A DNA stretch of 64,000 bases from Sacculina carcini. Taxonomy: Eukaryota; Arthropoda; Thecostraca; Sacculinidae. The DNA is taken from contig OU696589.1 of the NCBI GenBank assembly GCA_916048095.2, positions 1,854,948-1,918,947 on the forward strand. The letters run 5' to 3'. Every line of letters begins with the position of its first letter. Within the stretch, counting starts at the first letter, position 1. The notes below the pieces were generated by a model. It saw only the letters and a program-made list of their open reading frames with translations. It made no database searches and was not told the DNA's origin. This document shows positions 144-64,000 of the stretch, piece by piece. The translations under genes were made by a program, and so were the position numbers.

Positions 144-744
144 TAGTTTTGATACAATTCAGTTTGGCGTAAGAAAATTAGCATACACTCGGGGGTGGGA
201 TCACAAGAGCCTAGTATAGTCGACAAGTTGTAAGTTAGTTGTCGACCATCACAGCATGATTACAGGGTGTGCCGTTGCGAACAGAAAAACGGGCACTCGA
301 TGAAGACGTTCAATCGTGAATCAAGCATTGCAGTGTGTACATCTCGGTGGTGTAGCTTTATCAAGGAGACGATCTTGAGTCATCCTTTTGTGGCCTATAT
401 GCAGTCTATTTAGCACTCTTCATCAGGAGAAGCAGATGTATTGAGTGGGTGCCTCATATATTACCAGGCTAGCTTATGAATATGAATAAGACAATGGTGC
501 ACAGCCTCGCATCTATGCTTACATTTATCGTCAATACAAAACATTGATGAGTCCGTGATATCAGTGACCGGAGCCCTGATGCCTGATCTATGGTACTAAA
601 CACCATTTCTGTGTTCAGAGTCATCTGGAAGTTCCATTTTGAGTAATCAAGAGAGAAGTAGACGTGAACATCTGATTCCTCATCAGATTAATGCGAGGTG
701 CAGTCGGTTAGCTTTTTAATGAGTGTTGTGTAGTTACCGTAAGT
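144..744. other. No gene recognised
   Basis: About 600 bases of mixed composition with no coding frame I recognise and no clear repeat structure. It may be the decayed flank of the DIRS-like element to its right. Confidence 0.5.
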
Positions 745-6932: not shown

Positions 6933-9900
6933 CTAGACTGCATACTCCGGTTTGATCAAATTAAGTGACGAGTCATAGCACATTGACAGTAAATACTTTC
7001 TCGCTCGTGATTTATATATAGGGAATGTAGGAGACGTTCGGACGTGCAAAGGAAGCGTGTTAAAAATTCGCGGCGCTACATAGCGAAAACATCTGTTGTA
7101 ACGGCTGTCATTGCTAGGAAACTTCGGCACCGTCAATAATTGTAGGCCGTCAGATCGAAGAGTACGCGACGATGAATGAACCTCAAGCATGTCAGCTATA
7201 TAGCGAGGCGATCTCAACTTGACAGCTTGAAACACAATTCACACAGTTCGATATTCCGACAGAGCCTTCACAGGTAGCCACGAGAGCTGTATGAGATGTT
7301 TTGTTATATGAGTCCTCGCTGGCAGGTGGAACACTAGACGACATGACATGTTGATGAGTCGCTGTATCTTGCGAAGCACTCTATGGGGCAGATTCAGGTA
7401 CAGCGAACAACAATACATAATTCGAGACATCACCAGTGCGTTTACTAATTTGAGGGCCGACGAGTTAGAAATATATTTCCGAATTGAGTAAATTTGGCGA
7501 ATATAGTAGCAGCAAATTTTGATAAGATCCGAAATGTGATGGATGAATGACAGCCGATTATCAAAAATGACACCCAAATTTCTTGAGGATTCAGAAAACA
7601 AAAAGTTGAAAGAGCTGGGAGCAAAAGAGGAAATTTTGCTGAGCGAAACAGGTAAAAATGTTGTTTTGTCGGGATTCAGCAGCAGTCTACGGCTAGTGGC
7701 CCAAGATTCAACACGCTGTAAAATGCTAGCAGTAAGTTGGTTCGCGTGACACGCATCATCATATGTGAAAAATATTAGGATATCATCGGCAAATAATTGG
7801 TAATCGATTTCATGAAAATCCTGTAGAGCAAATTTAATCGAGGATAGGTACACATTGAATAAAAGCGGTCCGAGAACAGATCCTTGAGGCACACCATTCA
7901 CAAGAGGGAAGTTTGAGCTGTGACAATCTTTTACAATAACTGACTGTGTCCTCTCACTCAAGTAATCACGCAGCAGATCAAGTGCGAATCCAGAAACGCC
8001 ACAACGCTCAAGGTGATTAATCAAGATTGCATGACACACTGTGTCGAATGCGGCGGAAAAGTCCAGTTGTATGAGTATGACATTTCTGTGTTCTAGGCTG
8101 CGCTCGAGTAAAAAGTTGTAGGCATACAGCAGAGATGTCTCAGTCGAATGGTTCTGTCTGAAACCAGATTGCTGGTGAAGAAAGACATTGTTTTCCTCCA
8201 GGTGAGCGTATACTTGGTCATACATGGCTATTTCAACAAGTTTGGAGAGCCAGGGTATGGTAGAAACTGGTCGATAGTTCGATATAGTTTCGGAATCAAG
8301 ACTAACTTTTTTGAGCAGCGGAGATATAACAGCATGCTTGCCGCCAAGAAACCTTGCATGAAGAAAACATGCATTTAAAAAGTAGGAAACAAATGGTGCC
8401 AACATGTACACACAAGATGCGATCTTATCAAAGCGGGTGGGATCTTGTACCGAAGACTTACCTTTAGACCTGGAAATCAACCTGACGCAGTATAAATAGT
8501 CAACCTGGGCAAACGAAGTCATGAGTGATACAGCAGCAGGAGCAGAATACATGATGGATGAATTGTCTGAACTGAACATATCATTGATTCGACTCAGCTT
8601 CAGTTGGAAAAATGAAGCGAATGTGTTGGCCAGAGTGGAGGGATCACCACTCGGAAGCGGATGATCTCCCCGCCGACCAAGAAGCCGATTCAAAACCCTC
8701 CATTGCCCACGGGAATCACTGGAGCATTCACGCAACTTTCGCTCATAGTAGTCATGTTTAGCCTTATCACAAGCCTCAAAGTATGACCGTCTAAAAATGC
8801 ACAACTTATTTAGTGCTTCATCAGATCTAAGACGTCTCCATCGTCGCTCAAGACAGCGGCATGACCGCTTAACCGATCTAAGTTCAGGACTGAACCATGG
8901 GAGCGAGTGCAATGTCTGAACAGTTTTGTCGACAAAACGGACGTTCCTGTCCAGCACAGTGGTAAGAGCAGTGTTAAAAAAGTCCAAAATGTCATCAAGA
9001 GGAAGACGAACATAGCTAGAGAAGTTGAAGAAGTTTTCAAGATCTACGCAAAGTCCATCCAGGTTACATTTTGTATAGTCGAAATACGCCACTCGTTCGA
9101 GGGCTTCAGAACGTAACTGAGCTTCTACAACAAATTCAATCATTGGCTTCAGAACGTAACTGAGCTTCTACAACAAATTCAATCATTGCATGATCCGATA
9201 TTGAGTTATCAATTGGCGAAACACAGACATTTGAAATTAGCTTGGAGATATGCGGCAAGTCCGGCTCAAGAATAAGATCAAGCGTATGACCGTGTAAATG
9301 AGTGGGTGAATGAATAAGGTTCCTCAATCCATGCGATTCGATGACTTCGAGAATAGCATGAGAGTACGACTTCAATTGTGGACAGTCAACCCAGTAGTTG
9401 AAGTCCCCACAAACAAGAAAGTTCTCGGAGAATAATTCACTACACTTTTCGACCAATGTTGAAAATTCATCGAAAAAATTTAGATCAGAAAGCTTCTCGG
9501 ATCTGTATACTATCAAGACACCCAATACAGGGTTCTTACCCGTAGAACTGGAGACTTTGACACACAGATATTCACATGATTTTACAGCTACACTCAGTGA
9601 TACTTGTTTTACAATAAGACAGCAATTGTAAATGAAAGCGATACCACCACCAATAGTACAAGTATCTCTGCAATGATATATACCCAAATAGCCAGAAGGT
9701 AGATTCGAGGAAAATATAGAAAGCTCCGCCTCTGCAAGCCATGTCTCTACAACAATCATGCAATCAAGACCGGACATGAGCACATCAGACACAACATGAC
9801 ACTTATTTTTCACAGACCGCAAGTTGTGAAGAGCGAATCTTGTTATTCGGCTGGAAGATTCACAGCCTGATGCGTGGTCGTCGATGCGTGAACAATAGCG

Positions 9901-11054: not shown

Positions 11055-13446
11055 TTACACCTTATAATCATCACTAATATAGACAATGTTCTCTAGAGTA
11101 TAATACGATTTCACCATGAAAAATTTCTTTGAGTGTTTTTTGAAGACAGGAATAGAATTGATAGAACGTAGTGTTGGGGAGAGCTTATTGTAAATACGGG
11201 TTCCTAAGATAGAGAAACAACGATTATAGTGAGTATCGGGACGACGCCCAAGAAGAGATGGTGGATAGGATGTCAGAGAGAAAAGACGGAGAAGGAAAAG
11301 GAAGAGGGATATATAACTGAATGTCATCAGCGTAGATATGAAATGAGATGGAATACTTACGAAGGATAGGACAGAGGGAGGACATGTGAAGGTTAAAGAG
11401 TATCGGACCAAGAATAGATCCCTGAGGGACACCTGATGAAAGATGGATAGGATCAGATACAGAGGAATTGAAGTTGACAGAGTAGGTCCTTCCCGAAAGG
11501 TACGATTTAAGGAGAGAGAGGGCAGAAGACGAGATACCAAGATGAGAGAAGTCATGAATTAGGATAGAGTGATTAACAAGGTCGAAGGCGGAGGACATAT
11601 CGAGAAGAACGAGAAGAACAGAGCGACGGTACGAGAAGTGCGAAAGGATGCCATTGGAGATAGAAAGAAGAACTGATTCGGTAGAATGAGAAGGGCGAAA
11701 CCCGGATTGGAAGGGATCAAGAGACTGGCAGATGAAAAGGGAAAGTTGCGCGGAGATAGCGGACTCGAGAAGTTTAGAAGCAAAGCTCAGAAGAGATATA
11801 GGACGATAGTTACTAAGTATAGAAGAGTCAAGGTTCTGTTTCTTAAGAATCAGACGGACAATTGCATGTTTGTCAGCGAGAAACTGGCCGTGAAGAAAAG
11901 AGGAGTTGATAAGATGCAGGAGATAAGGAACCAGGGAAGGAAGGGATTTGGAGATAGCAGGGAAGTTGATTGGATCAGCTGGTGAGAAGGATAGCTTGGA
12001 AGAGGAAACGAGGGAAAGGATATCATGAAGATCAATGTGAGAGAAGGACGTGAACCGGTGATGAGTGGAAGTGTGAGTGAGGGCAGCACAATTGGTGGGA
12101 ATACTCGATTGTGTGAGTTTTACTTTTTCAGAGAAAAATGTTGAGAACTCGGGAGCCGTTAGAGGAGAGGAAAAAGCAGGAGAGTGAAGACCGCAGAGAG
12201 AGTTCAGAGTGGACCACAATAACTTGGAGGAACGAGAAAGGGACGAGAGTTTGGAGCTATAGTAGCTACTTTTAGCAGCAGAAAGAGCAGAAGTGAAAGA
12301 TGAGCGAGCGGAGCAAAATAAAAGCCAATCGGAAGAAGATCGTGAACGCCTCCAAGTACGCTCAAGACGTCGTTGAAGAGACTTGAGTACTCGAAGCTGA
12401 GGAGATGACCAAGGAGGAGAGCGAGAGGAAGATGAGCGAGTGATGATTGGGAACAAACAATTATTTATATGGGAGAGTGCGGAAGAGAAATATGGATAGA
12501 TATCATGGGGAGGAAGATAATACAGAGCAGAGATAGGGAGACAGGAGGATAATAGTGAGTGAAATTGAATGGAATTAAAACATTTGTAGTTACGATAGCT
12601 GGACGGAGTATGAGAAGGGGGACAAGTGAGCGGCAGAGTAGATAAAAGTAGGCTATGGTCAGAGACGGAGGAATCAGGAGGAAATACAAAGATATCGGAA
12701 GGGACAGGATCAGTCGTGAGAAATGGGGAGGGAAACAGGACTAGATCAAGTGTATGACCAGATATATGTGTAGGAGAGAGAGAAGAATAAGATAGACCAT
12801 GGGAAGTAAGTAATGAGATAAAATTCAAGCAGTAAGGATTGGCCGAGGGTGAATCAAGCAAGAAGGTAAAGTCGCCGAGTATGATAAAATGGCTGGAGAA
12901 AATAGACGAGACTGCTTCAATGAGAGGAGGAAACTCTTGAAAAAACATCGCGGAAGTGCCGGGGTGATTGGGACGGTAAATGATAAGGATGAAAAACTTG
13001 TTAAAAGAGGGGACCGAGAGGGTGAGAGCTAGGAATTCGAATGAGATGGGAGAAGAAACCAGATTGGAAAGGGACGAAATGGAGAGACCTTTGGAGAATA
13101 GACAACCTACCCCGCCACCCGAAGACTTAGAACTGTCGCGCGATTTGTGTAGGAATGAAGAACAGGAAGGTAAGTTAGCAGAGAATGAGGAAATATCAGA
13201 ATCAAGGAGCCAGGTTTCGGCAAGACAGAGAATAGAGATATTATGTGAGGCAAAGAGGTGGGATATGTGAGTCGTTTTATTTCGAGCCGATCTGATGTTG
13301 AGAAATCCAATTGAAAGATACTTAGAGTTAAAATGTGGACTAGGTTGAGGTGAGGGAAGTGAGGAACAGGAGAGGGAAGAGATGGAAGAGCGGCAGGGAA
13401 ATTGCGCTGAAATAGAAAGAGGAAGGGAAGAATCGCTAGAAGGCAA
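11055..13446 (-). pseudogene. L2-B ORF2: endonuclease-RT with thumb deletion
   Basis: The endonuclease motifs NIRSARNK, LAETWLLDSD, YRPNHPG, LGDFTFLLD and VSDHSLLL run from about 13310 to 12650. The RT motifs NYRPISLL, LDMSSAFDLV, GVPQGSILGPILFNLHMSS and YADDIQLY run from about 11830 to 11330. The frame ends at 11224. The C-terminal tail with HYNRCFSILGTRIYN (to 11055) is in another frame, joined straight after SWASSR. Compared with L2-C, about 190 residues between these points were deleted, leaving a dead RT. No ATG precedes the endonuclease domain; the frame is continuous with ORF1 except for one UGA. Confidence 0.88.
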
Positions 13447-13452
13447 TAGTCA
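13444..13452 (-). promoter_or_regulatory. UGA-CUA junction between L2-B ORF1 and ORF2 (possible readthrough site)
   Basis: On the minus strand ORF1 ends AAT TGA and the same frame continues CTA TTG into ORF2. UGA followed by CUA is a known leaky stop context in alphaviruses and some animal genes. ORF2 has no in-frame ATG before the endonuclease, so readthrough would explain its expression. A simple nonsense mutation in a once-fused ORF is the alternative. Confidence 0.5.
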
Positions 13453-14619
13453 ATTTAGCATTGGCGAGGGATGACGAGGGATGACGGTCGGTGGTGAGGG
13501 GGTGGGAGCTAAGAGAGTGCGGGCACGGATAGAATTGCGGACAGCCAAGAAGGAAGAACACTGCGGAGAAAAAACAGAATGGTTAGAAGTGTGGCCGTGA
13601 TTAGTGCAGTTGACACATTTCAGTGTGCTGCGATCAGGACAGGCGGAGGAGGGGTGGGGACCAGCACAATAGCCACAGACGGGTACTTTTGTGGGGCAAC
13701 GCTCAAACTTGTGACCAAGTCCACAGCAGCAAGAGCAGCGAGTCACCCAAAACCTGTCATAAACGCGACAACAGCGTAGGTGGACGAAGAGGCGATCACC
13801 TCCCTCACGAATTTTTTGCCGAACTCCCGGTGAGACTCCCAGCACGGCATGAGAGCGACCTTGTTTAGGCGGGGTGATGAAGAATAACTTGAGGTCGGCT
13901 TCTGGGACATCAGTGAGAAAGCTGTTCTTGGCACGCAGGGAGGCCAGCAGACTATCAGGGGACGAGGGTGGCACATCCACGAGGGTGATTTTCGGCAGAA
14001 TTGTTTGCTGCTTATTCAGCACTGCTACTTGCACTCCGTCGATGTTGTCGGCAAGCGACTTGGCTGCCTGGGCAGCGGCGTCTTCGGTGGAGCAGCGCAA
14101 AACAAAACCACCAGATGATGTAGGACGGGCCGTTTTCACTTGTACCGTTTGCAGATGTTGTTGCAAGTTATCAGCTCGTACAGGCTCTTTACTTTTGTTT
14201 TTCACCACAAGAGCAATTGTACGGGCTGGCACGTTGTGGTGGGAAGCGGTATTTTCATCAGCGTTGGCAGAGGCGCAGCGAGAGGGGTGAAAGTCACGCA
14301 GATCATCAAGCAGTTCGGTTCGCAGCTGGGTGAAGCGGGACTCTATCACCGATGTCACTTTCTCGACAGTCAGTGGATTACGCTTGACTAGTACGAAGTC
14401 AGTTTTGCACAAAGCACAAACCCAAAACAGTTTATGCTTCTTGACAGCATTGTATGCCGGTGTAGAAAGCGCCGCGCATGAGGGGTGAAATACGGCGGAG
14501 CATCCTTCGCACATGTGCGCGACGGCGGAAACGGACTCACCGCAACAACACAATCGATCAATGTCAGAACGGTTGAGCATTGCGGTCACAACACTCGCGC
14601 ACAGAAAAAGACAGAGCAA
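13450..14619 (-). CDS. L2-B ORF1: PHD finger and zinc-knuckle protein, intact
   Basis: A 389-residue open frame. Residues about 24-70 form a PHD-type finger (CCCGE, HMCEGC, FHPSC, WVCALC). The middle is a coiled/RRM-like region. About residues 290-345 carry CCHC-like knuckles (RCSCCCGLGHKFERC, CGYCAGPHPSSAC, KCVNC). PHD-bearing ORF1 proteins are known in CR1/L2-type LINEs, where they help assemble RNA-protein particles and possibly contact chromatin. There are no internal stops. The ATG before the PHD, likely the one at the MLNRSDIDRL stretch (about 14580), is a good start; the longer N-terminus is hydrophobic and less certain. It shares ORF2's frame. Confidence 0.85.
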   Translation of the reverse strand: MLCLFLCASVVTAMLNRSDIDRLCCCGESVSAVAHMCEGCSAVFHPSCAALSTPAYNAVKKHKLFWVCALCKTDFVLVKRNPLTVEKVTSVIESRFTQLRTELLDDLRDFHPSRCASANADENTASHHNVPARTIALVVKNKSKEPVRADNLQQHLQTVQVKTARPTSSGGFVLRCSTEDAAAQAAKSLADNIDGVQVAVLNKQQTILPKITLVDVPPSSPDSLLASLRAKNSFLTDVPEADLKLFFITPPKQGRSHAVLGVSPGVRQKIREGGDRLFVHLRCCRVYDRFWVTRCSCCCGLGHKFERCPTKVPVCGYCAGPHPSSACPDRSTLKCVNCTNHGHTSNHSVFSPQCSSFLAVRNSIRARTLLAPTPSPPTVIPRHPSPMLN

Positions 14620-14880
14620 ATAAGGAAGACACGGAGCTTACAGAAACAGCACCACTCGCGACGGCTACTCGACGACGACTGTGACCGTTACCGTTATTAT
14701 AATAAAAATAGAATACACAACAATACCAAGATGTTCATAAATTTTACGTTCTATTGTCTCACCATTCAATGTTACTTTAGGAATTGAAAAATTCATTTAC
14801 CTGTTTTTAAATAAGATGCATTTTGTTTTGTTCGTTTTCAGATTAAAGTCGTTTGCACATATCCAAGTGTTTACTTTTAT
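14620..14880. other. No gene recognised
   Basis: The first part is probably the 5' UTR of L2-B. The rest merges with the old LINE fragment Jk-1. Nothing codes. Confidence 0.4.
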
Positions 14881-47334: not shown

Positions 47335-47627
47335 CCGGCGAGCATCTCCCGGTCACAAAGCGAGTGCGGTCCCTGCATCTCCGCGCTCGGCGGTTGCTAG
47401 CGCACCGCCTTCCGCACACGACGGAGCGACTCCCACCACTGCCATAGAGGTGGAGAGTTCCTCTAAGCGGAAGCTCTCGGCCTCTCCAAGTGGGTCCCCA
47501 CCTGACGCGGAGAGAGGACGATCGGCCAAGCGATGCGATTAGGGACCTGTGCAACCTGGTTGCTGGTGTATATGTGCCTTTTTAACGGGAGTATTTATTT
47601 GTATTTTATTCTATTATATTTATTTTT

Positions 47628-50600
47628 ATGTCCATTTTACAATGGAATATTAGAGGTATTAGACCGAATTTTAATTATTTACTGCATATTTTACACTCCC
47701 GACAATCATCGATTTTAGCACTACAGGAGACTAAGCTTTTAAATTCTTCGTATTTTAGTATTCAGGATTTTAATGTTTTTAGGTATGATAATCCCAGCTC
47801 GACTATAGCCCACGGCGGGGTTATGCTGGCTGTTCGCACCAGTGTACCCTGTCGCCGCCTGCATATTCAGTCAGATTTGCAGGTGGTTGCGGTTCGGTGC
47901 TGGCTGGGTGGTAGGGAGGTGAGTGTGTGCTCATTGTACCTGCCGCCTGGTCGCCCGTTCCCAAGGGCTGACATCGAGTTTTTAATCAGTTCACTTCCAC
48001 CCCCTTTTTATGTGTTAGGCGATTTTAATGCTCACAGCCCTTTTTGGGGTTGTGATGCATATTGTAGCCGTGGTTTTATTATGGAGGATATTTTAACTGT
48101 TTTAGACATAGGTATTTTAAACACAGGCACATATACGCATTGCACCATGCCATCGGGAAGCATGTCCGCTCTGGACCTCAGTCTGTGCAGTCCCAGTCTG
48201 CAGGCATCCACGAGCTGGACCGTTGAGAATAGTCTGTATGGGAGTGACCACTTCCCTATATGGATCTATCTCAATGAGGTACCTAGGTTGGGAACACGAC
48301 CACCGAGATGGAATTTCAAACGAGCTGATTGGGTCCGCTATGATTGCTTGACACTGGAAGCCATGGGCAACCCCACACTTCGACCCAGCGTCGAAGATTT
48401 TACTGAGGCCATTGTCACCTGTGCCAAGCAGAGCATTCCGCGTACGGCATCGTGTCCCCGGCGGCGTTCTGTCCCTTGGTGGGCAGACGCGTGTTCTGCG
48501 TCGTTGCGAAAGCGACGTCGTTGCTGGGGTCGCTTCCTGCGCAACAGCACGGTGGCAAACATGCTTTGCTTTCGCCACGCTCGCGCACAAGCTCGATGGA
48601 CCTTTCGCGAGGCGAAGCGGGCCTCCTGGGTGTCCTATGTGTCCAGCATTAATCGGCATTGTCCTATATCCACCATATGGACCGTATATAGCGCATCTCT
48701 GGGAAGTACCATCCCACTCCACTGCTTTCTCTGAAGATCAGTGGCGTGGACGTGATAAATCCGGAGCATGTTGCTCACAAAATTGGCCGATATTTAGTGG
48801 AGTGCTGTCGTGCAAACGTAGACGACCCTGATTTTGCGGCGATCAAACAGCAGTGCGAGATATCACCCGTTGATTTCTCCACCAACTGTCAGCTGCCAAT
48901 CAACAGCGATTTTTCAGCATCTGAGCTGAGAACAGCCTTGCGATCGCTTTGCGATGTGGCTTAAGGCCCTGATGAGGTTCACAACCTCATGCTGAAACGT
49001 CTGTCGCCCGCAGTGCTGTCCACTTTGCTGCAGGTCTTCAATGATCTGTGGAATGGTGGACAGTTTCCAGCCTCCTGGCGACGGGCAATCGTGATACCCA
49101 TCACAAAACAGGGCAAATCGTGCGATCACCCGTCTGACTATCGCCCGATATCGCGGACCTCCAGTCTCTGCAAACTGTTTGAGAAAATGGTTTGCAGACG
49201 GCTGGTATGGCTTCTGGAACGCGGTCGGCTGTTCAATGATGCTCAGTGAGGATTTCGCCAAGGTCGCTCAACGTTAGACCACTTGGTGACCATTGACTCT
49301 CGCGTACGTGAAAGTTTCGCGCGAGGTCACCACGTCGGGGCGATATTCTTTGACATCGAGAAGGCATATGACACCACATGGCGACATGGTATTCTTCGCA
49401 AACTGCATCGCTGTGGTGTCAGAGGCAACATGGGGAGTTTCGTACACAATTTCCTTTTGCACCGCACATTCTGTGTGCGTGTTGGGAACTCCTTGTCTCG
49501 TCCGTTCGATCAGGCAGAAGGCGTTCCACAGGGTAGTGTGCTCAGCGTGGCCCTTTTTGCCATAATGATCAACGACATTGACAATCATTTGCCTCCCTCG
49601 ATTGGACGGTCTCTATTTGTGGACGATTTTGCCGTATGGTGTTCTTCCCGCAGCACTGTTGCTGTCCAGCGTCAACTGCAGCTGGCGGTGAATAAAATAG
49701 AGACTTGGGGAACGCGTAACGGCTTCCGCTTCTCGACGTCCGAAACGGTCGGTGTACACTTCTGCCGCCGTCGAGGTGCCTGCCCTGACATGGAAGTGGA
49801 ATTGTACGGCAGTGCTGTCTCATTCCAACGCACGGTTCGGTTTTTAGGGGTCACGCTGGACTCGCGCTTGACCTACACCGACCATATTTCACAGCTGAGA
49901 ACCACATGTCTAAAGGCACTGAATGTGTGACGACTGTTTCCCGCATGCGTTATGGGGCAGATCGACAGTCCCTTCTCCTTCTGTACCGCTCGTTAGTCAG
50001 GTCGCGTCTCGATCACGCAAGCATTGTATTTGATCTGGCTTCGGAGTCAGCAAAAAGCCGTTTGAATGTCGTACACCACGCAGGGATACGCATTGCCACC
50101 GGCGCGTTTCGCACGTCGCCAATAGTCAGCCTCCTCGTTGAGGCTGATGAGGCTCCGCTGGCGCTCCGTCGTCAAGAGCTGGGCATGCGTTATTCTTGCA
50201 AGCTGGCAAGCACCCATGAAAACCCCGCGTATGACGTGGTATTTTCTCAGCATGTGCCTGAGCAGCAGCACCTTCCAGGACCTCAGTGTTCTGTGCTGTT
50301 TTGCAGCAAAATGAAGGCACTGCTGGAGTCATGCGGGATGGGTGCTAACGACATCCTCAGACAAGAATACACGGCGGAGTCACCCTGGGAATTGGTCACA
50401 CCCGAGGTTGACGTCTCGCTAGCAGCTCTGCCGAAACACCGTACAGTGTCCAGTGTGCTTCGCTCAAACACACTGGAGCGAATTCATTCTTACGGACGGT
50501 ATACTGCCGTGTACACTGATGGATCTAAGTCGGCCAGTGGTGTGGGTTGTGCGTTTGTAAGTGGAGGTACGTGCCGCTCGAGCACGCTGCCACCGAGCGC

Positions 50601-52009: not shown

Positions 52010-55000
52010 CTAGTGTCGCAGCTGAAGTGGGCTTCCGCTGACTGCAGTTCGGACTGCTGATATTGTTGCTAGTCGTCCCATCATCTCCGGCAGTGAGTTG
52101 TGATGACAGCTCTGATATCCTGGTATCGGTGGTTCATCAGGAATATCGTTCAGCCATTTGTCCAGTCTTCGCTTGAACAGCTCTGTCTTCACTCCAGTGA
52201 TGTTTCTCAGTTCTCGAGGTATACAGTTAAACAGACGTCTGCCATTGTGTCTGAACGAGCTATGGATGATAGTACCCAGTTTCTGTGAGAATGCCTGAGT
52301 TGCTTCCACATAGCATAGCCTGCCTCTTCTTTGGTGAACTTGCTGCTGCAGGCCTACGTTTGGGACACTTCCTTCTAGTATTTTCCAGACATATATCACT
52401 ATGTATCTCTCTCTTCTTCTTTGCAGAGAGTACAGCCTGAGAGTTTTCAGCCTCTCCCAGTAGTTGAGTGTCTCCATCCCTTGGATCTTGCTGGTGAAAG
52501 ACCTCTGGACACTTTCCATTTCTGCTATATCTTGCATTTTCTTGGGGCACCACAGTTGGCAGCAATATTCCATTCTGGACAAAATCATTGCTTTCCATAC
52601 TCCAACCATGCAACTTGGTTCTCTCGTTTGGAATGTCCGAAGCACCCACCCACTCATCTTTCTAGTTAATTATGATGTTATAGTGATGATTGAATGTTGC
52701 ATCGCTGCTCATATATATGCCGAGATCTTTAACTTGCACCTGTTGTGGTATAATCCGACCATTGCACTTATATGTCGTTTCCTGCTTCAATTTTTCGTTT
52801 GGACCGTATCTCAACAGCTCGAATTTGTCACTGTTTAGTTTCATATTATTTGATGAGGCCCATGTTAATACACAGTCTAGGTCAGATTGCAGTTTGACCA
52901 CATCTTCGGTACTTTCAATTTTCAACAACATTATTGTGTCGTCAGCGAAAGATGTGGTCTTGGAGCACTGGAGACTGCCATCAATATCTCCTATATGGAC
53001 GATAAACAGCAGTGGTCCTAGTACCGATCCTTGCGGCACTCCACTTCTTACTTCTCCTGGAATTGAGAGGTGCCCTCGAACCGATACTCTCTGCTGCCTG
53101 TCTGTAAGGAAGTTATGAAGCCATCTTCCAATGTGCCCTGTGATACCCAGGTTTCTCAGTTTGTGTAACAGAACTCCATGATCGACCTTATCGAACGCCT
53201 TTTCGAAGTCCAGATAGATGACGTCAGCATTGCATCCATCTTGTATGTTCTTCAATACTTCTTCATAATGGGTCATCAATTGAGACAGGCAGGATCTTCC
53301 TCTCCTGAATCCATGCTGTCCTACATTGAAGTAACCATGATCTTCTAAATAGGTCGTTATTTTCTTCTTTACTATGCGTTCAAATATTTTAATAATATGT
53401 GACGTTAGTGTTATTGGCCTGTATCTGCTGGCTAGTCCTCGACTGCCTCCTTTATGTATTGGAGTTATGATGCCTGTTTTCAAACACGAAGGTATTTTGC
53501 CTGTTTCTAGTGATAGAGACCAAAGTATTTTCAGCGGTAGTGCGATTTGATGTCGACACTTTTTCAATAATATTGGATGAAATCCATCTGATCCTGGAGC
53601 TGCGTCGTTTGAGATATCTTCGATAGCCTCTACAATGTCCAGCTGTGTGAAGTCAAAAAACGACAGTTGACCAGTTCGTGTTGACGTATCTGTAAAGAAG
53701 TCATTTGGATTTTCCACCGCTTTGTCTACTAGCGGACTACTGAAGACACTTTCATATTGATCTTTCAATATATTGGCCATCTCCAATTCGTCTCCTGTGA
53801 GCTCACCGTCTTTTCTCGTTAGTGGACCAACTGTTGACGTTGTTTTTATCTTCTTGTTTGCATATGCAAAGAAGTATTTGGGATTTGTTTTTATTTTTTC
53901 GACTGCTTGTATTTCTTCTCTCATTTTTTGCTCAGTATGTGACTGCTCAAGTAGAAGTTCGATCAAACGAAGCTGCTCATTTATTATATTTATATTTTGT
54001 TTTCCGTTCCTTTGTAGTTTTTTCTCCAGTAAGCGTCTCTTTCTCATGAGTATTCTCCTGTCTCTCGGGATTATTGACCTGTTACGTCGCTGCTTCTTAC
54101 ATGGAATAAGTTCAGCACAAACAGCCAAACATTCTTTCACAATCACTTCATTTATTGTGTCGACATCGTCCAGTCTTGAAAGGAGTCCATTCAAATCTAT
54201 TTGTCCAATGGCAGCTGTCACATTGTCCCAGTTTATGTTTGGAGAATAGAAATTGTATTTTCCCAGATTATTTTCAGCATCATGCTGTTTTTCTACACAA
54301 CTGTTTTTTCCACTGAGGGAGAGTAGTCTACCCTGTATAACATTGTGATCTGACATGATGGTGCCTTTGACATACCAAGAGTGTACTATACCAGTATTGC
54401 TTGTTATTAGCAGATCTAGGACGTTATGTGATCTAGTTGGTTCTTTAATTAACTGCACCAGATAATGTTCCTGTATCAAGTCAATGAGAGCCTGTGCTTG
54501 TTGTCTCTCTTCCAGTGTAATAATACCACTTCTCACTCTCAGAGTATCCCAGCAAATGGTAGGAAAGTTGAAATCTCCCAACATAATTACTTCTGTCTCA
54601 GGGGTTGGCAGATTTCGTAGTGCTCTGTATATTTTTTCTAATGCTTCAGAAAAAAGTTGTACCGTGGTATCAGGTGGTCTATACACCGTTAACAGCAGAA
54701 TGTTTACACCTTTCAGGTACATAATCAACAATTCTGTTCTTCCGTTCGAGAAACTCGTTATTTCCTCCGTGTTAGCCGCAATGTCATCTCTAATGTAGAC
54801 GGCCACACCTCCGTGTTTTCTTTGTTTTCTGTCTGCTCTGTAGACAGAATAGTTTTTTATATTTATTTCTGCATCAAATTGCTCTTGATTGAGATGTGTT
54901 TCTGTTAGAGCAAGGAACATCAAGTTCTCTTCCAGTGCATATTCACTCAACATCGGGATCTTGCTTTGATTACATTTGGGATAAAGACCCCTGATGTTGA

Positions 55001-55133
55001 GGTATATAAAATTGTTTAGTGTATACATCGGTTGCATGTTCTTTCCCGAGTCTCTATTCTTTCCATTCTTGTCAACAGAGTATCCAGTATCTTGGTTGTT
55101 CTCTCTTCCATCTGTTCTATTCTTCGAAGACAA
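52010..55133 (-). pseudogene. Rx-1 ORF2: endonuclease-RT with one frameshift
   Basis: Endonuclease about 55020-54320: YLNIRGLYPK, ALTETHLNQ, KHGGVAVYI, YRPPDTT, LGDFNFPTI, MSDHNVI. RT about 53480-52800: SRYRPITLTS, YLDFEKAFDKV, GVPQGSVLGPLLFIVHIGDI, SFADDTIMLL. Thumb and C-terminus in a second frame (52657-52010): SRMEYCCQLW, RRRERYIVIYVWKILEG. It nicks target DNA and reverse-transcribes the LINE RNA. The only lesion I see is a frameshift at about 52660-52690. A likely start is the ATG of the MQPMYTLNN stretch (about 55038), overlapping the stop of the CCCH frame. Confidence 0.87.
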
Positions 55134-55780
55134 GTTTCTAAAAAATTTGCACCATCATATTCCCTCTGTGCTTGAGTCCGAGTTTCTATCACCTTCTGGC
55201 GATTTTTTTCTGTTGTCTTGTATTTGTTTGTGTTGTTCATACTGTGTCCATTTTTGGGTTTGTTTTTCACGGTCTCTCCTGTACCAGCGTAGTTTGTAGT
55301 CTGGTTTGTCAAGGCATCCCGATCTTTTCTCATTGTACCTCTGACATGGGGGAATTTGCAATTTTCATTCAGGCAAACCCGAGACTTCAATGAACCCCTG
55401 CACATGTTCGGATGGAAGTGTGGACACTCCTTCCCCAGCTTGCATCCCAATTTGTTATTTGTTCCATGTTTCAGAAACTTGGGGCATGGTTTAGGGTGGC
55501 TATGTGTACAATCTACGCCTCTGATTCCATGTTTGCAATTACCATTTCTATAGTACCTACAAATGTTTTGACTTGGGTTTTTTCTAACTTCAGCGGACGA
55601 ATGTTTTCCTACTTGAGTGTTCTTTTTCAACTCCTTTTTTGGGTCAACATCTACAGACTCCCATGCTGTATCGCACTCAGACTTACAGGTACATGCTTTT
55701 TCCGCGTTTTCATTCCTTTCCTCCTCGTTTTCCTTTGCTTCCGTGTAGTCTGTATTATTCGACAACTGCTCTTTATTCAT
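55016..55780 (-). CDS. Rx-1 ORF1b: CCCH-type zinc-finger protein
   Basis: 254 residues. A charged N-terminus leads to three CCCH-like fingers at about residues 75-150 (CRYYRNGNCKHG..CTHSH, CPKF..C..GKECPHFH, CRGS..C..NCKFPH), then a Lys-rich linker and a C-terminal coiled coil (RRIEQMEERTTKILDTLLTRMERI). CCCH fingers usually bind RNA. Its ATG at 55780 overlaps the stop of the PHD frame as ATGA, and its own stop overlaps the start of ORF2, suggesting coupled translation. Alternatively ORF1a and ORF1b were once one ORF split by a frameshift. Confidence 0.8.
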   Translation of the reverse strand: MNKEQLSNNTDYTEAKENEEERNENAEKACTCKSECDTAWESVDVDPKKELKKNTQVGKHSSAEVRKNPSQNICRYYRNGNCKHGIRGVDCTHSHPKPCPKFLKHGTNNKLGCKLGKECPHFHPNMCRGSLKSRVCLNENCKFPHVRGTMRKDRDALTNQTTNYAGTGETVKNKPKNGHSMNNTNKYKTTEKNRQKVIETRTQAQREYDGANFLETCLRRIEQMEERTTKILDTLLTRMERIETRERTCNRCIH

Positions 55781-57330: not shown

Positions 57331-59870
57331 CTGCTTTTCGGTGGTGGTCTCCTCTTCCATGGCAGCTTGGTCTTCTGCACTGGTGACTGTAACCGGAGAG
57401 TCAACATCATCCACCTCCATTGCCGCCTCTTCCGGTGTCTCGATTGCAGGCTCGTTCCCCAGGGTGATCTGCTCCAGCTTCTTTATCCTCTCCTTTTCCT
57501 CGATCCTCGACCTGGCGATCTGCTCAAAACGTTCAAAGTTGGGCAAAGGATGCAGCGACAGACCCTTGAACGTTTTGACCCTTGTGGCTCCAACGAGAAG
57601 AAGGTCGAGGGCAAACTCTCTTTTCCCGGGGTTCAGGATGACCTTGTCGAGGGTGGCTCCCTGCAGCTTGTGGATGGAGAGGGCATATCCGAGGATGACG
57701 GGAAGCATGGTCCTCGTGCAGTCGACATTGTTGGAGTACCAGTTCCTGGAGACGGGCAGATCGGTACGGCCTTCTTGATGCCCTTGTACCACGGTCCCTT
57801 GTAGGCCTCAAAGATTGCGATGATGGCGACGGGGAGCTGAGGAGGCTTCTTGCCTGGCGCGTAGATGATGGAGTGGACCTGGCCCACTGCTCCGTTCGTC
57901 AGCCCCGCTGCGGTCCACAGATTGGAGGTGAGACGGAAGATGGTGTTGCTGCAGAGGATGATCTTGCTGGGCAGTCCAGACAGGCTCCCTCCTTGGCTGC
58001 CTCTGGCTAGGGATGGATTGCTGCCTTATCAGGGCCATGGGCTGCTTGTTGTCGCAAATCTTCCTCCTGTTGTGCTCGATCATATCCTTGGTATAGGCAC
58101 AAGCAAGGAATCCATTGTCCAGGAAGCTCTGCCTCTCATCCGTGGGGAGATCGTCGAGTGAAAGGGACCTCCAGCGGTTCCAGTCCTGGAGGTTGAACTT
58201 TCCCTCTCCCAGGCGGTGAAGCTCCTCTCTGAACTGGTTCTGCTCGTCCCCGTCCTGCCGCTGGATCTACTCAAAGATGATGGTCTTCTTGAAGCGGAGG
58301 TAGAGGCTGTGCGCAGGACCGGTCATCTCCCTGTGCTTGGCCTTCTTGTCCTTGGAGGGGTTGTGGTAGAGGAGAGTGTCCAAGACGGGCGGCAGCTGTT
58401 TCCAGTCCCCGAGGGGGAGGACGGACATTCCCCCAAATGGCTCGTTGCAATAGTGAGGACGCAGCTCTTTCAGCCTCTCCTTGATGAAGAAGAACATCTT
58501 GAGCCCGATCATGCTCTTCTCGTCGATGATGATAAGGCGTTCTTGAGGTCCTGCTGCAGCGTTGCGAGCCTCCCGATTGACAGAGGGGCGAGGAAGTTCT
58601 TCCCGACAGGCAGAAGGAGGAGGCCGTGCAGAGTTTCTTCCCCGATCTGGAATGCATCTGTCTGACGGAGCTGCTGACCTGACAAAGTCCTTGGGCAGGG
58701 AGGTGGACCTGGCATACCTCCGGACGGCGTTGAGGAAGTAGGTCTTCCCTGTCCCTGCTGGCCCCGAGATGTTGAATAGCAGTGGTTCCGTGCTATCCAG
58801 TCCACTGGCCTCCATCTTGTCCAAGAACTCCTTGACAATGTCGAAGGCCACGCGTTGCTTGGCTTTGAGCTGGTCCGGAAGCGGTCCCTCTTCGTCGTCT
58901 TCTTCTGGCATGGCCGTTCCGTCCTTGTCATCCTTGAGCTTCTTTGGCAGGCTCTTCAGATCCTCTCCCGTAAGGCCCAGCTCTCTCGAATCCCTCTGCC
59001 AGTCGTGGTCGTGGGCGTCGCTTTGGAACTGGTTCTTGTTGTAGTCGTCCTCAGGTTGCCCTCTGTAGACCAGTTCCTGCTTCTCTTGGCGTATCTCTCC
59101 AGCGAACGTCTGGTACTGGTCCTGCTCGTAGACCTCGGGAGGAGTCATCGGATGGTGCAGGAGCTCGGTCTTCTGCGCTGCTTCGTCATCTGCCCCGAAC
59201 TGGGTCTCCTTTTCCCCCAGAACCCTCTGGCTCTGCTTGAACTCTTCCATGACAAGCTTGTGGCAGTTGGGGCCATTGAAAAAAATTTCAACCTCCTCCT
59301 CGAGGACTTTCTTGTCGAGGGCCTGGATGACGCTGAGGGTGACTCCGGCCTTGAAGACGAGGAGGATCGCTCGCAGGAAAATGAGGTACCTCTCCCCCTG
59401 TTCGGCTTTGTGCTTGTTGGGGACGTAGGAGACGTTGGGTGTGATGTGGGGGGCCTTCTCCTCTCCGTGGATCATCCAGTTCCTCTTGTAGTTGGAGACA
59501 AACTCGTAGAGCGTAATGTCGAGGGTAATGAACTGGATCTTCCCCTCCTCGTAGTCCTTGACCATCCTCTTGAAGTTTTCGTTCTCCTCACGGTCCCAGT
59601 ACCTTGTGGCCATGTTCTCCTCGGCCAGGTCCTTGTCTTTGGCTTCCGGGGCGTTGAGCTTCCTCGTACCCATGACGTTGACGGAGACGATCTTCCTGCT
59701 GAACTCGATAAAGTCCAGGCCGTTGAGGATGTGGGCGCACTCCTGCTTGGAGAGGTCATGCTCTCCGACCGTCTTCATCAGGATCTTCTAGAAGGCCTTC
59801 CTGGTGGAGTCTCTTTCGTCTGGGTCTTCGATGACGGCTGCACAGATGGCACTGAAGGGCTTGGAGTCGG
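57331..59870 (-). pseudogene. Helitron-type PIF1 helicase (C-terminal part of Rep-helicase)
   Basis: Minus strand. The segment at about 59870-59640 (RDSTRKAF, KILM, DLSKQECAHILNGLDF..SRKIVSVNV) matches the Rep-helicase linker of Helitrons; the Rep nuclease itself is missing, cut off at the TA microsatellite. Then Walker A SGPAGTGKT (about 58765-58740), FQIGEETLHGLLLLP (another frame, about 58640), LIIIDEKSMIG (about 58525), FGG and GDWKQLPPV (about 58410), NLW..GLTNGAVGQV (about 57910) and SIHKLQGATLDKV (about 57680). Helitron helicase unwinds DNA in rolling-circle transposition. At least four frameshifts and a TAG (58267) make it dead. GC-rich codon use differs from its neighbours. Confidence 0.83.
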
Positions 59871-60886: not shown

Positions 60887-61925
60887 TCAGACCTTGTAAT
60901 CACTACTAATATACGTATTATTATTAAGACAGTGAAAAGACTTACTTAGGAAAAAAATTTCAGTGTGTTTTTTGAAAAGAGAAATAAATTTGATTGAGCG
61001 TATTGAGGGAGATAGCCTATTGTAGATGCGAGGTCCTAAGATAGAGAAACAGCGATTGTAGTGAGAATGCCTAGAAGGAAAGGGAGGTTCAACTAGTAGA
61101 AAATGATCCTTAGAAGACCTAAGAGAAAGAGATGAGGTTTTATAAGACAGAAGGTCAAACAGATACGTAGGCTTACGAAGATGAAGAGCTGAATGAATAA
61201 TTAAACAAATACGATACTCAATAAGAGCCTTGATTGGAAGTAACTTAAGTTTGTGTAGAGAAGAAGAAACATGAGAGCCCGAAGGAAGATTAAATATCAT
61301 ACGACAAGCTTTATTAATAATATATTGAAGTTTCCTAAGCTGGCGGTGGTTGAGTGATAGTAGAAGAGAACAGCAATACTGAACTTTGCTAAAGATGAAT
61401 GAGTTAGCTAACTTGAAAGCAGCAGAAATAGTTATATATCTACGAATGGAATAGATACGCATGAGCTGAAAGTTACAGCACCTAATAATGTCAGAGATGT
61501 GTGGATCAAAAGAAAGAGAGCTATCAAAAATGATACCAAGACTACGTACAGAGCAGGATAGAGGTATACTAAGAGAAGTAGTACTATTAGAAGATGGAAA
61601 GAGAATATACTTAGTCTTATCAGGATTAAGTTTGAGATGACGAGTGAACGCCCAACTTTCAATATCAGATAGAATAGAACTGACTGAAGAGCGAGAAATA
61701 GACACGGACGAGAGAAGGATTTGAATGTCATCAGCAAATATTTGAAATGACACATCGTGACGTCGAAGTACTTTACCTACAGAGGTTAGATAGATATTGA
61801 AGAGGAGAGGGCCTAAGACAGAGCCTTGAGGGACACCGCAAGTTAGTGGGCAAGCCTCACTACAAGAATCAGCAGAGGTAGATACGTATTGAGATCTATC
61901 ATAAAGATAAGAGCGAAAGAAAGAA
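60887..61925 (-). pseudogene. L2-C ORF2: RT C-terminal half, open but truncated
   Basis: The minus frame has no stop from the truncation to 60887. It holds SYLYDRSQYV, GVPQGSVLGPLLFNIYL and FADDIQILLS (about 61850-61720), the thumb (RSLGIIFDSSLSFDPHISD, about 61540) and the tail HYNRCFSILGPRIYNRLSP (about 61050). It lacks endonuclease and RT fingers, so it is inactive. It is the best reference here for what L2-B has lost. The first about 30 codons, rich in Cys/Ala/Val, are chance flank. Confidence 0.85.
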
Positions 61926-62221
61926 AGAGAAACCACCAACACATACGCACACATACGGGCACACGCAGAACTCAAGAGCGCATGCACACATACAGGCGTA
62001 CGCACACACGGACACTAGCGGATACACGCACAAGCACACACACTCGCTTCATTTTTGGAGGAAGAATATGTGTCAATATCTCGTGATTTGGTAATTGACG
62101 GCGCTTCCACTGCACATTTTGTATAATAGATTAGGCTTCGTTTTCAACTTTGGATGTGTTTTGTACGTATGCTTCGGTAATGCTATTCTGACAACGAGTG
62201 GAAGAGTCAACGCGACCCACA
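61926..62221. other. CA-rich flank and leader of the right-edge element
   Basis: Impure CACA/ACGCACAC sequence to about 62045, then about 175 bases that may be the 5' UTR of the element starting at 62222. No gene. Confidence 0.4.
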
Positions 62222-62515
62222 ATGCCTAACCACTGGAGCCCCAACGCTAGGACAAGAGTCTCGAAACCACCGTCCGACTACACATGCAGGGTATGTGACG
62301 ACACCGCTCGCATAGGACTCAACTACGGCGTTCGGTCCTGTCCCTCTTGTCGCGAGTTTTTCCGACGTTTTCTGTTAAAACACCCGGGCACCTGCAAGAT
62401 GAACGGTGAATGCCACATCGACAGAACCACACGCGCCGGCTGTCCAAGTGCCACGCCGAGTGTCATTGTCCAAGTGCCACGCCGAGGGCATGACTCTGCA
62501 GTGGCGGCCAGGTAA
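62222..62515 (+). pseudogene. Nuclear-receptor-type C4 zinc finger (start of right-edge retroelement ORF)
   Basis: The ATG at 62222 opens a frame with CRVC, 14 residues, then CPSCREFFRRF (P-box/FFRR motif), C-KMNGE-C (five-residue gap), HIDRTTRAG and CPS, from 62285 on. This is the C4-C4 spacing of nuclear-receptor DNA-binding domains. The last part (LSKCHAEGM, 62466-62492, matching the family's C..KC...GM) is in the next frame. The switch occurs at a 20-base direct repeat, TGTCCAAGTGCCACGCCGAG, at 62441-62460 and 62467-62486. The second frame goes straight on into PHD and RT. One codon extra between the first two Cys pairs is unusual. Confidence 0.72.
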
Positions 62516-63257
62516 CACGGACGACAACTCTCGAACACCTGGCGTGTCAACTTGCCAAGTCTGCGACACGGCTAATGCTAGGAAGAGGACCATCTGCTGT
62601 TCCAGCTGCAGCGCCACGGCTCATCTCACCTGCGTAGGGTTGTCGCGTGCTCAGGCCAGCGAACTTCCTATTTGGCACTGTCAAACGTGCATCAATGCTG
62701 AGCTGCAGCATGGCGCCGTGGTACAACCTGTTGTCGACGAGACGGCACCAGATGACCTGGCAGAGGCCCTAGCCCAGCTAAGAAAGCGCTCACGCTTTGC
62801 TCATCACATAGCTCTCAGACACAGGCACCGAGCCGCCACAGAACTGACAGAGCTCATCACTGCTGCAGCCGAACAGCGTACAGCTCTGTCCTGGTGGCGT
62901 ATGCTGTCCTATGCATACACCGGTTTCAGTGCTGCCAAAAACGATATCAAACAGGACGAGCATCAATCAAACAACAAGCTGAACCAGAGCGACGACTTCG
63001 GCTTCAATAATGCCTATGTAGCTCGTCGCATTCGGTCAAAATGTGCTGACGGTGATGTCAGGGGAGCCCTGCGTCTAATCACAACGCCGGACACAGTAGC
63101 TCCTCTCAACGCTGAGTCGTTAATGGAACTCCACAACAAGCAACCACCAGCACCGCCCGATGAAGACCTGGACTCCATAGTGTACAAGCACCAGATGCCT
63201 CTTTCACCCACTGAAGACGATGTCGCCGCCACCATCCAGTCGATGTCCCCGGGCTAA
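62406..63257 (+). pseudogene. PHD finger and RT N-terminal region of the right-edge element
   Basis: The frame continues from LSKCHAEGM to a PHD-type finger (62553-62690: CQVC, CCSSC, HLTC, WHCQTC). It then has an Arg-rich helical region, a stretch KCADGDVRGALRLITTPDTVAPLNAESLMELHNKQPPAP (about 63040-63150), which is the usual lead-in of a non-LTR RT, and TEDDVAATIQSMSPG. A TAA at 63255-63257 cuts it just before SAGLDGVRPLHL. The fingers would bind DNA or chromatin and guide the RT, by inference. A neighbouring endonuclease is not visible. Confidence 0.7.
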
Positions 63258-63982
63258 TCAGCCGGTCTTGATGGAGTGAGACCGCTCCACTTGTGTCAGT
63301 TGGCGTCTAAAAAACTCCTGAGGCCGGTCGTCAGCAGCTAACCGCATTGACCGCTCTCTGCCATTGCGCTGTGGAAGGTGGCATACCAGACCAAGCCAGG
63401 AATGCATTTTATGGATCGTCTCTGATTGATATCAGGAAAAAGAGTGGAGGGATGCGCCCAATCGCAATCGGCAGCTCCTATCGCCGCCTAGCCTGCAAAC
63501 TTGTTGCGAGCCGCCTCCTAGCTGCAGTCGCGGGCGAGTTACGACCCACTCAGCTAGGAGTCGACACACCACTGGGGTGTGAGGCAAACGTGCATGCAGT
63601 TCGCGAATATGTCTCGGCGGCCGACCACGGCGTGTTGGTAAAGGTCGACCTAAGGAACGCCTTCAATTCGGTGCACCGACAAGTGCTACTTCAGGAGGCT
63701 TCGCGGCGCTATCCCGCCGCCATGCCCTTGCTTCGTCAGGCTTACGACAGTCTAACACCCCTCTTTGTCGCCGATCAGGTCATCTGGTCATGCAGGGGCG
63801 TGCAGCAGGGTGACCCACTCGAGCCAGTGTTATTTGCTTTAGCCATTGATCCAGTGTTCAGACAGTTGCGCTCTCCGTTGAACGCATGGTATCTGGACGA
63901 TGGTATGTTGGCGGGTCCGGTCGACCTGTCTCAGCCGACATCGCCAGGCTCATCCCAGCTATGGAGACCCTCGGCCTCATAG
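63258..63982 (+). pseudogene. Reverse transcriptase palm of the right-edge element
   Basis: After SAGLDGVRPLHL (63258-63290) and a frameshift or stop near 63340, the frame 63347-63982 gives RKKSGGMRPIAIGSSYRRLACKLV, LGVDTPLGCEA, VKVDLRNAFNSVHR (catalytic Asp), CRGVQQGDPLEPVLFALAI and WYLDDGML (YxDD intact). The QQGDPL and YLDDG forms mark a non-LTR group common in aquatic invertebrates; I cannot place its clade firmly. A frameshift near 63920 ends the frame, and the element runs off the window edge. Confidence 0.78.
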
Positions 63983-64000
63983 TCCATGATGCCAAGACAG

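Follow-up and report, generated by a model that had tools for sequence, protein, structure and literature searches.

A nuclear-receptor-type zinc finger in non-LTR retrotransposons of Sacculina carcini and its possible part in the choice of CA repeats

What is a zinc finger of nuclear-receptor type doing in front of a reverse transcriptase, and does it belong to the same element at all? The question is raised by positions 62222-63982 (+) of a 64,000-nucleotide stretch of Sacculina carcini DNA (hereafter, the window), where a broken copy of a non-LTR retrotransposon contains, in this order, a nuclear-receptor-type double C4 finger, a PHD finger and a reverse transcriptase (RT). The original prediction was that a non-LTR element had captured a receptor finger for target choice. 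The capture by a non-LTR element is supported; the use in target choice is plausible. Our reading, to which we give a probability of about 0.6, is that the copy belongs to a set of R2-like single-ORF non-LTR families with the arrangement C4 finger, PHD, RT and putative restriction-like endonuclease (RLE), in which the captured finger helps to target the DNA of CA repeats.

The copy in the window and its neighbours

The three predicted segments are matched by Pfam domains in three frames of the forward strand: zf-C4 in 62192-62515 (E 2.4e-12, 47.6 bits at a cut-off of 21.1), PHD in 62403-63257 and RVT_1 in 63311-63982 (Table 1). The layout of a nuclear-receptor DNA-binding domain (DBD), which had been recognised by eye, is also supported by comparison with the PDB: phmmer matched the finger frame to 88 distinct sequences at E <= 0.01, and the best 60 of these 88 are all nuclear receptors or their DBDs. 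For the RT of this copy, R2 retrotransposon proteins rank first in the PDB (E 1.2e-11).

The motif that closes the finger, LSKCHAEGM, indeed lies in the frame that runs on through the PHD finger, as claimed at the outset, and outside the frame of the finger's first part. At this site a 20-bp sequence is directly repeated, at 62441 and at 62467, and the copy is 10 nt longer than its relative L010 at the end of the finger; the frame is therefore shifted and the end of finger 2 disrupted. The copy is further damaged by a stop (63255-63257) and by changes of frame beyond it. The leader, compared by eye, matches from about 62128 onwards the leaders of L009, L010 and L012-L014 (and L011 over a shorter part), and before about 62128 it resembles that of L020. 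Leaders seem, again by eye, to have been swapped between families: L009, L010 and L012-L014 have leader sequence in common with L024, and L020 has some in common with the window copy. Beyond the window, where this copy has its 3' end, a short CA tract is found (L015, about 130 nt after 5241).

Table 1. Features of the element copy and its 5' flank (positions in the window)
Feature	Position	Strand	Evidence or remark
Decayed CA-rich tract, 5' flank, taken as the old target repeat	61936..62048	+	CA 27 times vs TG once in 61931-62050
5' UTR-like leader of the element copy	62049..62221	+	likeness to leaders of relatives, by eye
ATG and nuclear-receptor-type C4 double finger	62222..62446	+	zf-C4 match at 62282-62446; PDB nuclear receptors
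Two 20-bp direct repeats; 10 nt extra vs L010, frameshift inside finger 2	62441..62486	+	
LSKCHAEGM, end motif of the finger, read in the PHD frame	62466..62492	+	joined to the finger in relatives
PHD finger	62553..62690	+	Pfam PHD, E 2.5e-6
PHD-to-RT interval	62691..63254	+	part of the genome-search query frame 62403-63257; closed by a stop
Reverse transcriptase, to beyond WYLDDG	63431..63913	+	RVT_1, E 1.3e-15; R2 proteins best in the PDB
RT frame carried on after a frame change	63850..64000	+	remaining coding region and 3' end outside the window

Retroelements abound in the window. A partial RT of a different LINE (60890-62014, minus strand; RVT_1 E 1.2e-15) ends at the CA-rich tract that precedes the finger element. 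LINE RT frames are also present at 7242-9167, 11227-13449 and 52665-55154 (all minus), and an APE-type endonuclease is found in the LINE frames 11227-13449 (-), 52665-55154 (-) and 47586-48731 (+). Just upstream of a LINE frame, a frame of 395 codons (13453-14637, minus strand) has a cysteine cluster near its start and no Pfam match at E <= 1e-4. A PIF1-type helicase frame at 58270-59787 (-) (Pfam PIF1, E 1.3e-11) perhaps belongs to a Helitron.

Relatives across the genome and the class of the element

The PHD-region frame 62403-63257 was used as the query against the genome of Sacculina carcini (264 Mb, 43 contigs), in which the window has the coordinates G000:C24:1854948-1918947, and yielded 137 matches, the window copy included. 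Six of them are 89-92% identical to the query and some broken ones 62-90%; many, at about 35-48%, represent other families, a good part of which are in long open frames. Twenty regions around the matches were fetched for reading. The end of the finger shares one open frame with the PHD finger in all six close relatives, and the full finger pattern lies within that frame in five of them; that of L006 begins within the finger. The finger, the PHD finger, the RT and a conserved C-terminal region are all found in one frame in ORFs of some 1030-1140 codons. The finger is uninterrupted and in frame with PHD-RT in 10 of the 11 aligned ORFs, the remaining one being 5' truncated. In nine element ORFs, Pfam places zf-C4, PHD and RVT_1 over the cut-off in eight each: zf-C4 is absent from L022, which is 5' truncated into a CA repeat between the finger and PHD, and L014, with a frame broken in the RT, falls short of it for both PHD and RVT_1. 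In another ten ORFs zf-C4 exceeds the cut-off without exception, four of these ORFs having been picked as zf-C4 matches and hence dependent.

On the genome scale, at least 96 of the 137 PHD-region matches have a zf-C4 match on the same strand no more than 500 nt upstream (this is a lower bound, as 150 of the 213 zf-C4 candidates were scored), and zf-C4 was found on the opposite strand within 1.2 kb of none of the 137. The other 41 have no nearby zf-C4 match among those 150 scored; truncations are among them. The predicted position of the finger upstream of PHD-RT in other copies thus holds, the exceptions that were read being 5' truncations; L022, L119, L120 and L121 are truncated in this way. 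At least 148 zf-C4 matches were obtained in all, and the 54 away from any PHD-region match include host receptor genes or exons together with element copies. Four such lone matches were fetched: L116-L118 have the PHD finger and L115 runs into a repeat. The L115 stretch carries, at 257-706 (-), a finger variant with a C-W-A-C P-box soon followed by an AT-type repeat, and a PHD match is absent from it.

These counts bear on the simplest alternative, namely that an exon of a host receptor lies upstream of a LINE copy by chance, with no fusion. The window copy taken by itself would agree with it, having the finger and PHD in different frames; the finger accompanies most of the PHD-region matches, shares one open frame with the RT in nearly all aligned ORFs and keeps its eight cysteines in 13 of 14 cases, so that we consider this explanation refuted and its probability negligible. 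A chance match or a lone host exon was likewise rejected on the Pfam scores, the copies in the genome, the in-frame relatives and the frequency of upstream fingers.

The C-terminal 710 residues have 63 genome matches, 28 of which stand in a frame that stays open for 1020-1062 codons; of these 28, 26 are at 96-100% identity and two at 71%. One family has many near-identical intact copies; we infer recent activity of the element. The 3' end is A-rich by eye in 16 of 20 copies, and in L063, L064, L068 and L074 the 3' UTR passes into CA without an A-rich end. No long terminal repeats were noticed as the copy ends were read. The RT domain, the dispersion in many copies (137 and 63 matches), the A-rich 3' end and the variable 5' truncation are those of a LINE.

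The C-terminal region of six ORFs has invariant C-x-C-x9-H-x3-C and RPDG-x14-D, which presumably fit the motif of a restriction-like endonuclease, and this CCHC plus PD..D region looks like a putative RLE. A profile of the C-terminal 210 residues gave three unrelated PDB matches with E 0.5 or worse. By likeness, the element is probably an R2-like LINE of RLE type. We do not assign it to R2 itself because two R2 features were not found: Pfam shows no match at E <= 0.1 to CCHH/CCHC finger(s) or Myb at the N-terminus in nine ORFs, and the copies read sit in CA-type repeats on many contigs instead of 28S rDNA.

A finger-less sister lineage was sought with a distant RT (290 aa of L114); among the 135 matches, many were already-known copies, and three of the previously unlisted ones, read because of their long frames, proved to be 5' truncations inside or near PHD. 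L114 (JAPLLI010000168.1) is itself the one distant relative found outside this genome, a LINE-like RT of 34% identity from a contig binned as Nitrospirae, which is probably a eukaryotic contaminant; no receptor finger was noticed by eye in its listed frames. No relatives were found in viral contigs.

Residues, constraint and descent of the finger

The element finger has the features of a receptor DBD: it is a zf-C4 domain with eight zinc cysteines, and their spacing is close to that of host DBDs. The seven element families with all eight cysteines show the spacing 2-(12 to 15)-2-(13 to 16)-5-(8 or 9)-2-4. Of the six host DBDs, four have 2-13-2-15-5-9-2-4; one spacing is different in L033, and L048 is partial. 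The 14th aligned finger, L021, has an incomplete first pair; the 13 others have all eight cysteines. Where families were read by eye, an ATG precedes the first cysteine by 4 to 22 residues. C-E-[GS]-C-K-G is the P-box that reads AGGTCA. It occurs in five of the six host DBDs (L048 has C-D-S-C-K-A) and in none of eight element families, where the P-box is C-[PRW]-[AS]-C-x-x-F. A ligand-binding domain has no Pfam match at E <= 0.1 in nine element ORFs.

The finger is under purifying selection in the informative pairs. Its dN/dS is 0.15 in L023/L024 (64 codons) and in L027/L024, which are the two most informative pairs, and 0.22 in L016/L017; the respective values for the RT are 0.18, 0.24 and 0.47. 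Very close pairs, with few changes, give 0.31 (L016/L028) and 0.10 (L009/L010) for the finger. Constraint is not visible in L010/L014 (0.59, with few changes in the pair) and in L025/L026, where all changes are nonsynonymous, and L012/L014 has no changes. The older pairs, with dS high or saturated, have finger dN/dS of 0.24-0.44, or pN/pS of 0.43-0.61 where saturated, and in them the finger is mostly less constrained than the RT. Finger dN rises with RT dN (r 0.97 over 14 pairs, which are not independent; 3 of 17 pairs were dropped for want of a usable RT stretch, and the RT comprised 60 codons in the L010 pairs). It was also observed that the finger dS in L023/L024 and L027/L024 is three to four times the RT dS, perhaps owing to exchange between copies.

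A tree was built from 12 element fingers and 8 host fingers, in which one change separates the two groups, with a branch support of 88/90; a single-copy host exon, which the original prediction had set against itself, is not what is observed. With midpoint rooting, the window's family falls on the side of the host fingers (81/76); the tree rests on 68 columns and has long branches. The tree allows a single capture, short of proof. Probably a receptor gene supplied the finger in a single ancient capture, and the families retained it as they diverged, its P-box having changed meanwhile.

Insertion sites and the role of the finger

In most of the thirteen copies that were read whole, the 3' end is followed by a CA-type repeat in the sense strand, and a CA-type repeat is found at the 5' side, too, where it is readable. 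CA runs of 8 nt or longer lie within 260 nt in 8 of the 11 whole copies with a readable 3' side (in L019, no A-rich end comes before the run), and the longest TG run on these eleven sides is not above 6; L020 and L022 have shorter CA runs, and L025 is within (CACAAA)n. Twenty 3' ends were then drawn from the 63 C-terminal matches, mostly from the upper list and from copies not fetched earlier. Within 80 nt past these ends, CA runs of 8 nt or longer are present in 19 of 20 and TG runs in none, against 7 and 1, respectively, of the eighty 80-nt control windows taken from 20 stretches at round-number positions; by a stricter measure of CA richness the figures are 18 of 20 and 6 of 80. The 5' side of the same copies has a CA run in 13 of 15 and a TG run in one of 15 (6 and 1 in 40 control windows of 120 nt). 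The two misses, L085 and L088, were placed by calculation, L088 from a shorter frame, and the true junction may be missed there.

A defined repetitive target is common, but not universal, among RLE-type LINEs; the target here is CA-type repeats entered in one orientation. A single orientation in a strand-asymmetric repeat is the outcome given by strand-specific nicking. Receptor half-sites, which the original prediction proposed to look for at the insertions, are not enriched: AGGTCA occurs twice in 6,496 nt of the 3' stretches vs three times in 6,500 nt of control, and CA-type microsatellites are found in their place. In places, copies of different families stand close together in one tract (L011, L027), and at G000:C31:5951942-5957830 two copies of the same family, about 3.8 kb apart, share one CA tract and one orientation. 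The flanks of L018, L019, L023 and L027, open in six frames and considered as long repeats, are runs of N in all four.

The mechanism can be drawn by analogy with R2, in which the target DNA is bound by zinc finger and Myb motifs at the N-terminus and the first strand is nicked by the endonuclease, as a passage of PMC12203849 describes. The N-terminal finger, with PHD, would substitute for R2's C2H2/Myb module, and the finger-PHD module would keep the RNP on CA/TG repeat DNA. Nicking of the GT strand would fall to the putative RLE, and from the 3' OH at the nick the RT would begin to copy the RNA at its A-rich end (target-primed reverse transcription). By the same analogy, it is plausible that the finger helps to pick the CA target.

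The six families whose ends were read (A to F) are all in CA-type repeats and differ in their P-boxes, which would be unexpected if the P-box residues alone read the repeat. The same fact favours another explanation, in which the finger (and PHD) binds the element RNA, some other RNP component or proteins of host chromatin, the RLE and RT being the sole source of CA specificity. This explanation also agrees with the loss, from the finger, of the P-box pattern that five of the six compared host DBDs share, and zinc fingers are known to bind RNA in other elements; however, a receptor finger by descent reads double-stranded DNA, and this one is N-terminal, as is the target-binding module of R2. 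On balance we consider this explanation unlikely, if worth keeping in mind. Much less probable, in our opinion, is a role in expression rather than integration, with the finger bound to a site inside the element or to host promoters. Receptor fingers are parts of transcription factors, and a leader of several hundred nucleotides has room for a response element, but the finger lies in one frame with the RT wherever the aligned ORF is not 5' truncated, the families have different leaders, and the ligand-binding domain is missing from the Pfam matches mentioned above.

We return to the reading that the captured finger helps to target CA repeats. It is tempting to go further and to propose that a receptor finger captured once was turned from AGGTCA-type half-sites to CA/TG repeats and now gives an R2-type integration machinery its address; we put this forward tentatively, at somewhat less than even odds. 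If true, it would be a case of natural retargeting through the capture of a transcription-factor DNA-binding domain.

Comparison with known systems

RLE-type LINEs comprise the clades CRE, R2, R4, NeSL and HERO. According to PMC4640811, these five clades include many target-specific elements, and the fish elements Togen, related to NeSL, are specific to (TG)n. A CA/TG target is thus already known for RLE-type elements. Compared by description only, our element is like Togen in having a TG/CA dinucleotide repeat as the target; our element carries a receptor-type finger and PHD, and the words "nuclear receptor" and "PHD" are absent from the main text of PMC4640811. Dong and HERO, R2-group or RLE-type LINEs of which some are in microsatellites (passages of PMC3636483 and PMC4640811), are similar, again by description only, in the R2-like, probably RLE-type character and the microsatellite target. 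Among open-licence PMC papers, none was found that describes a LINE with a finger of receptor type, either with or without PHD; within this scope, the original remark that no described family is known to have this combination can be kept.

The element resembles nuclear receptors in the double C4 finger with a CRLxKCxxxGM-like end, and the best receptor matched in the PDB by a profile is VDR (E 6.3e-9). It differs from them in the lack of a ligand-binding domain (by Pfam), in a P-box distinct from those of the six host DBDs compared and in the fusion to an RT. It thus presents a metazoan transcription-factor domain inside a selfish element.

To our knowledge, R9Av has no receptor-type finger. 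This rotifer relative of R2 occupies another rDNA site, and a passage of PMC12203849 ascribes the change of site to a different N-terminal domain. Our element is like R9Av in combining an altered site with a different N-terminal domain, and unlike it in that R9Av goes to rDNA.

The closest likeness in overall plan is to R2: a single ORF, an N-terminal zinc-finger module, a central RT, a conserved C-terminal region and site-specific insertion, with R2 proteins as the best PDB matches of the element RT. R2 has CCHH/CCHC-type zinc fingers and Myb and mostly a 28S rDNA target, as stated in passages of PMC12203849 and PMC5035012, whereas our element has a C4 receptor-type finger with PHD and a CA microsatellite target. 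R2-type enzymes are under development as site-specific gene writers, and their readdressing via the N-terminal domain is an aim stated in PMC12203849. About eight diverged versions of the finger, of which the six with ends read share one kind of target, offer a ready-made comparison for such retargeting.
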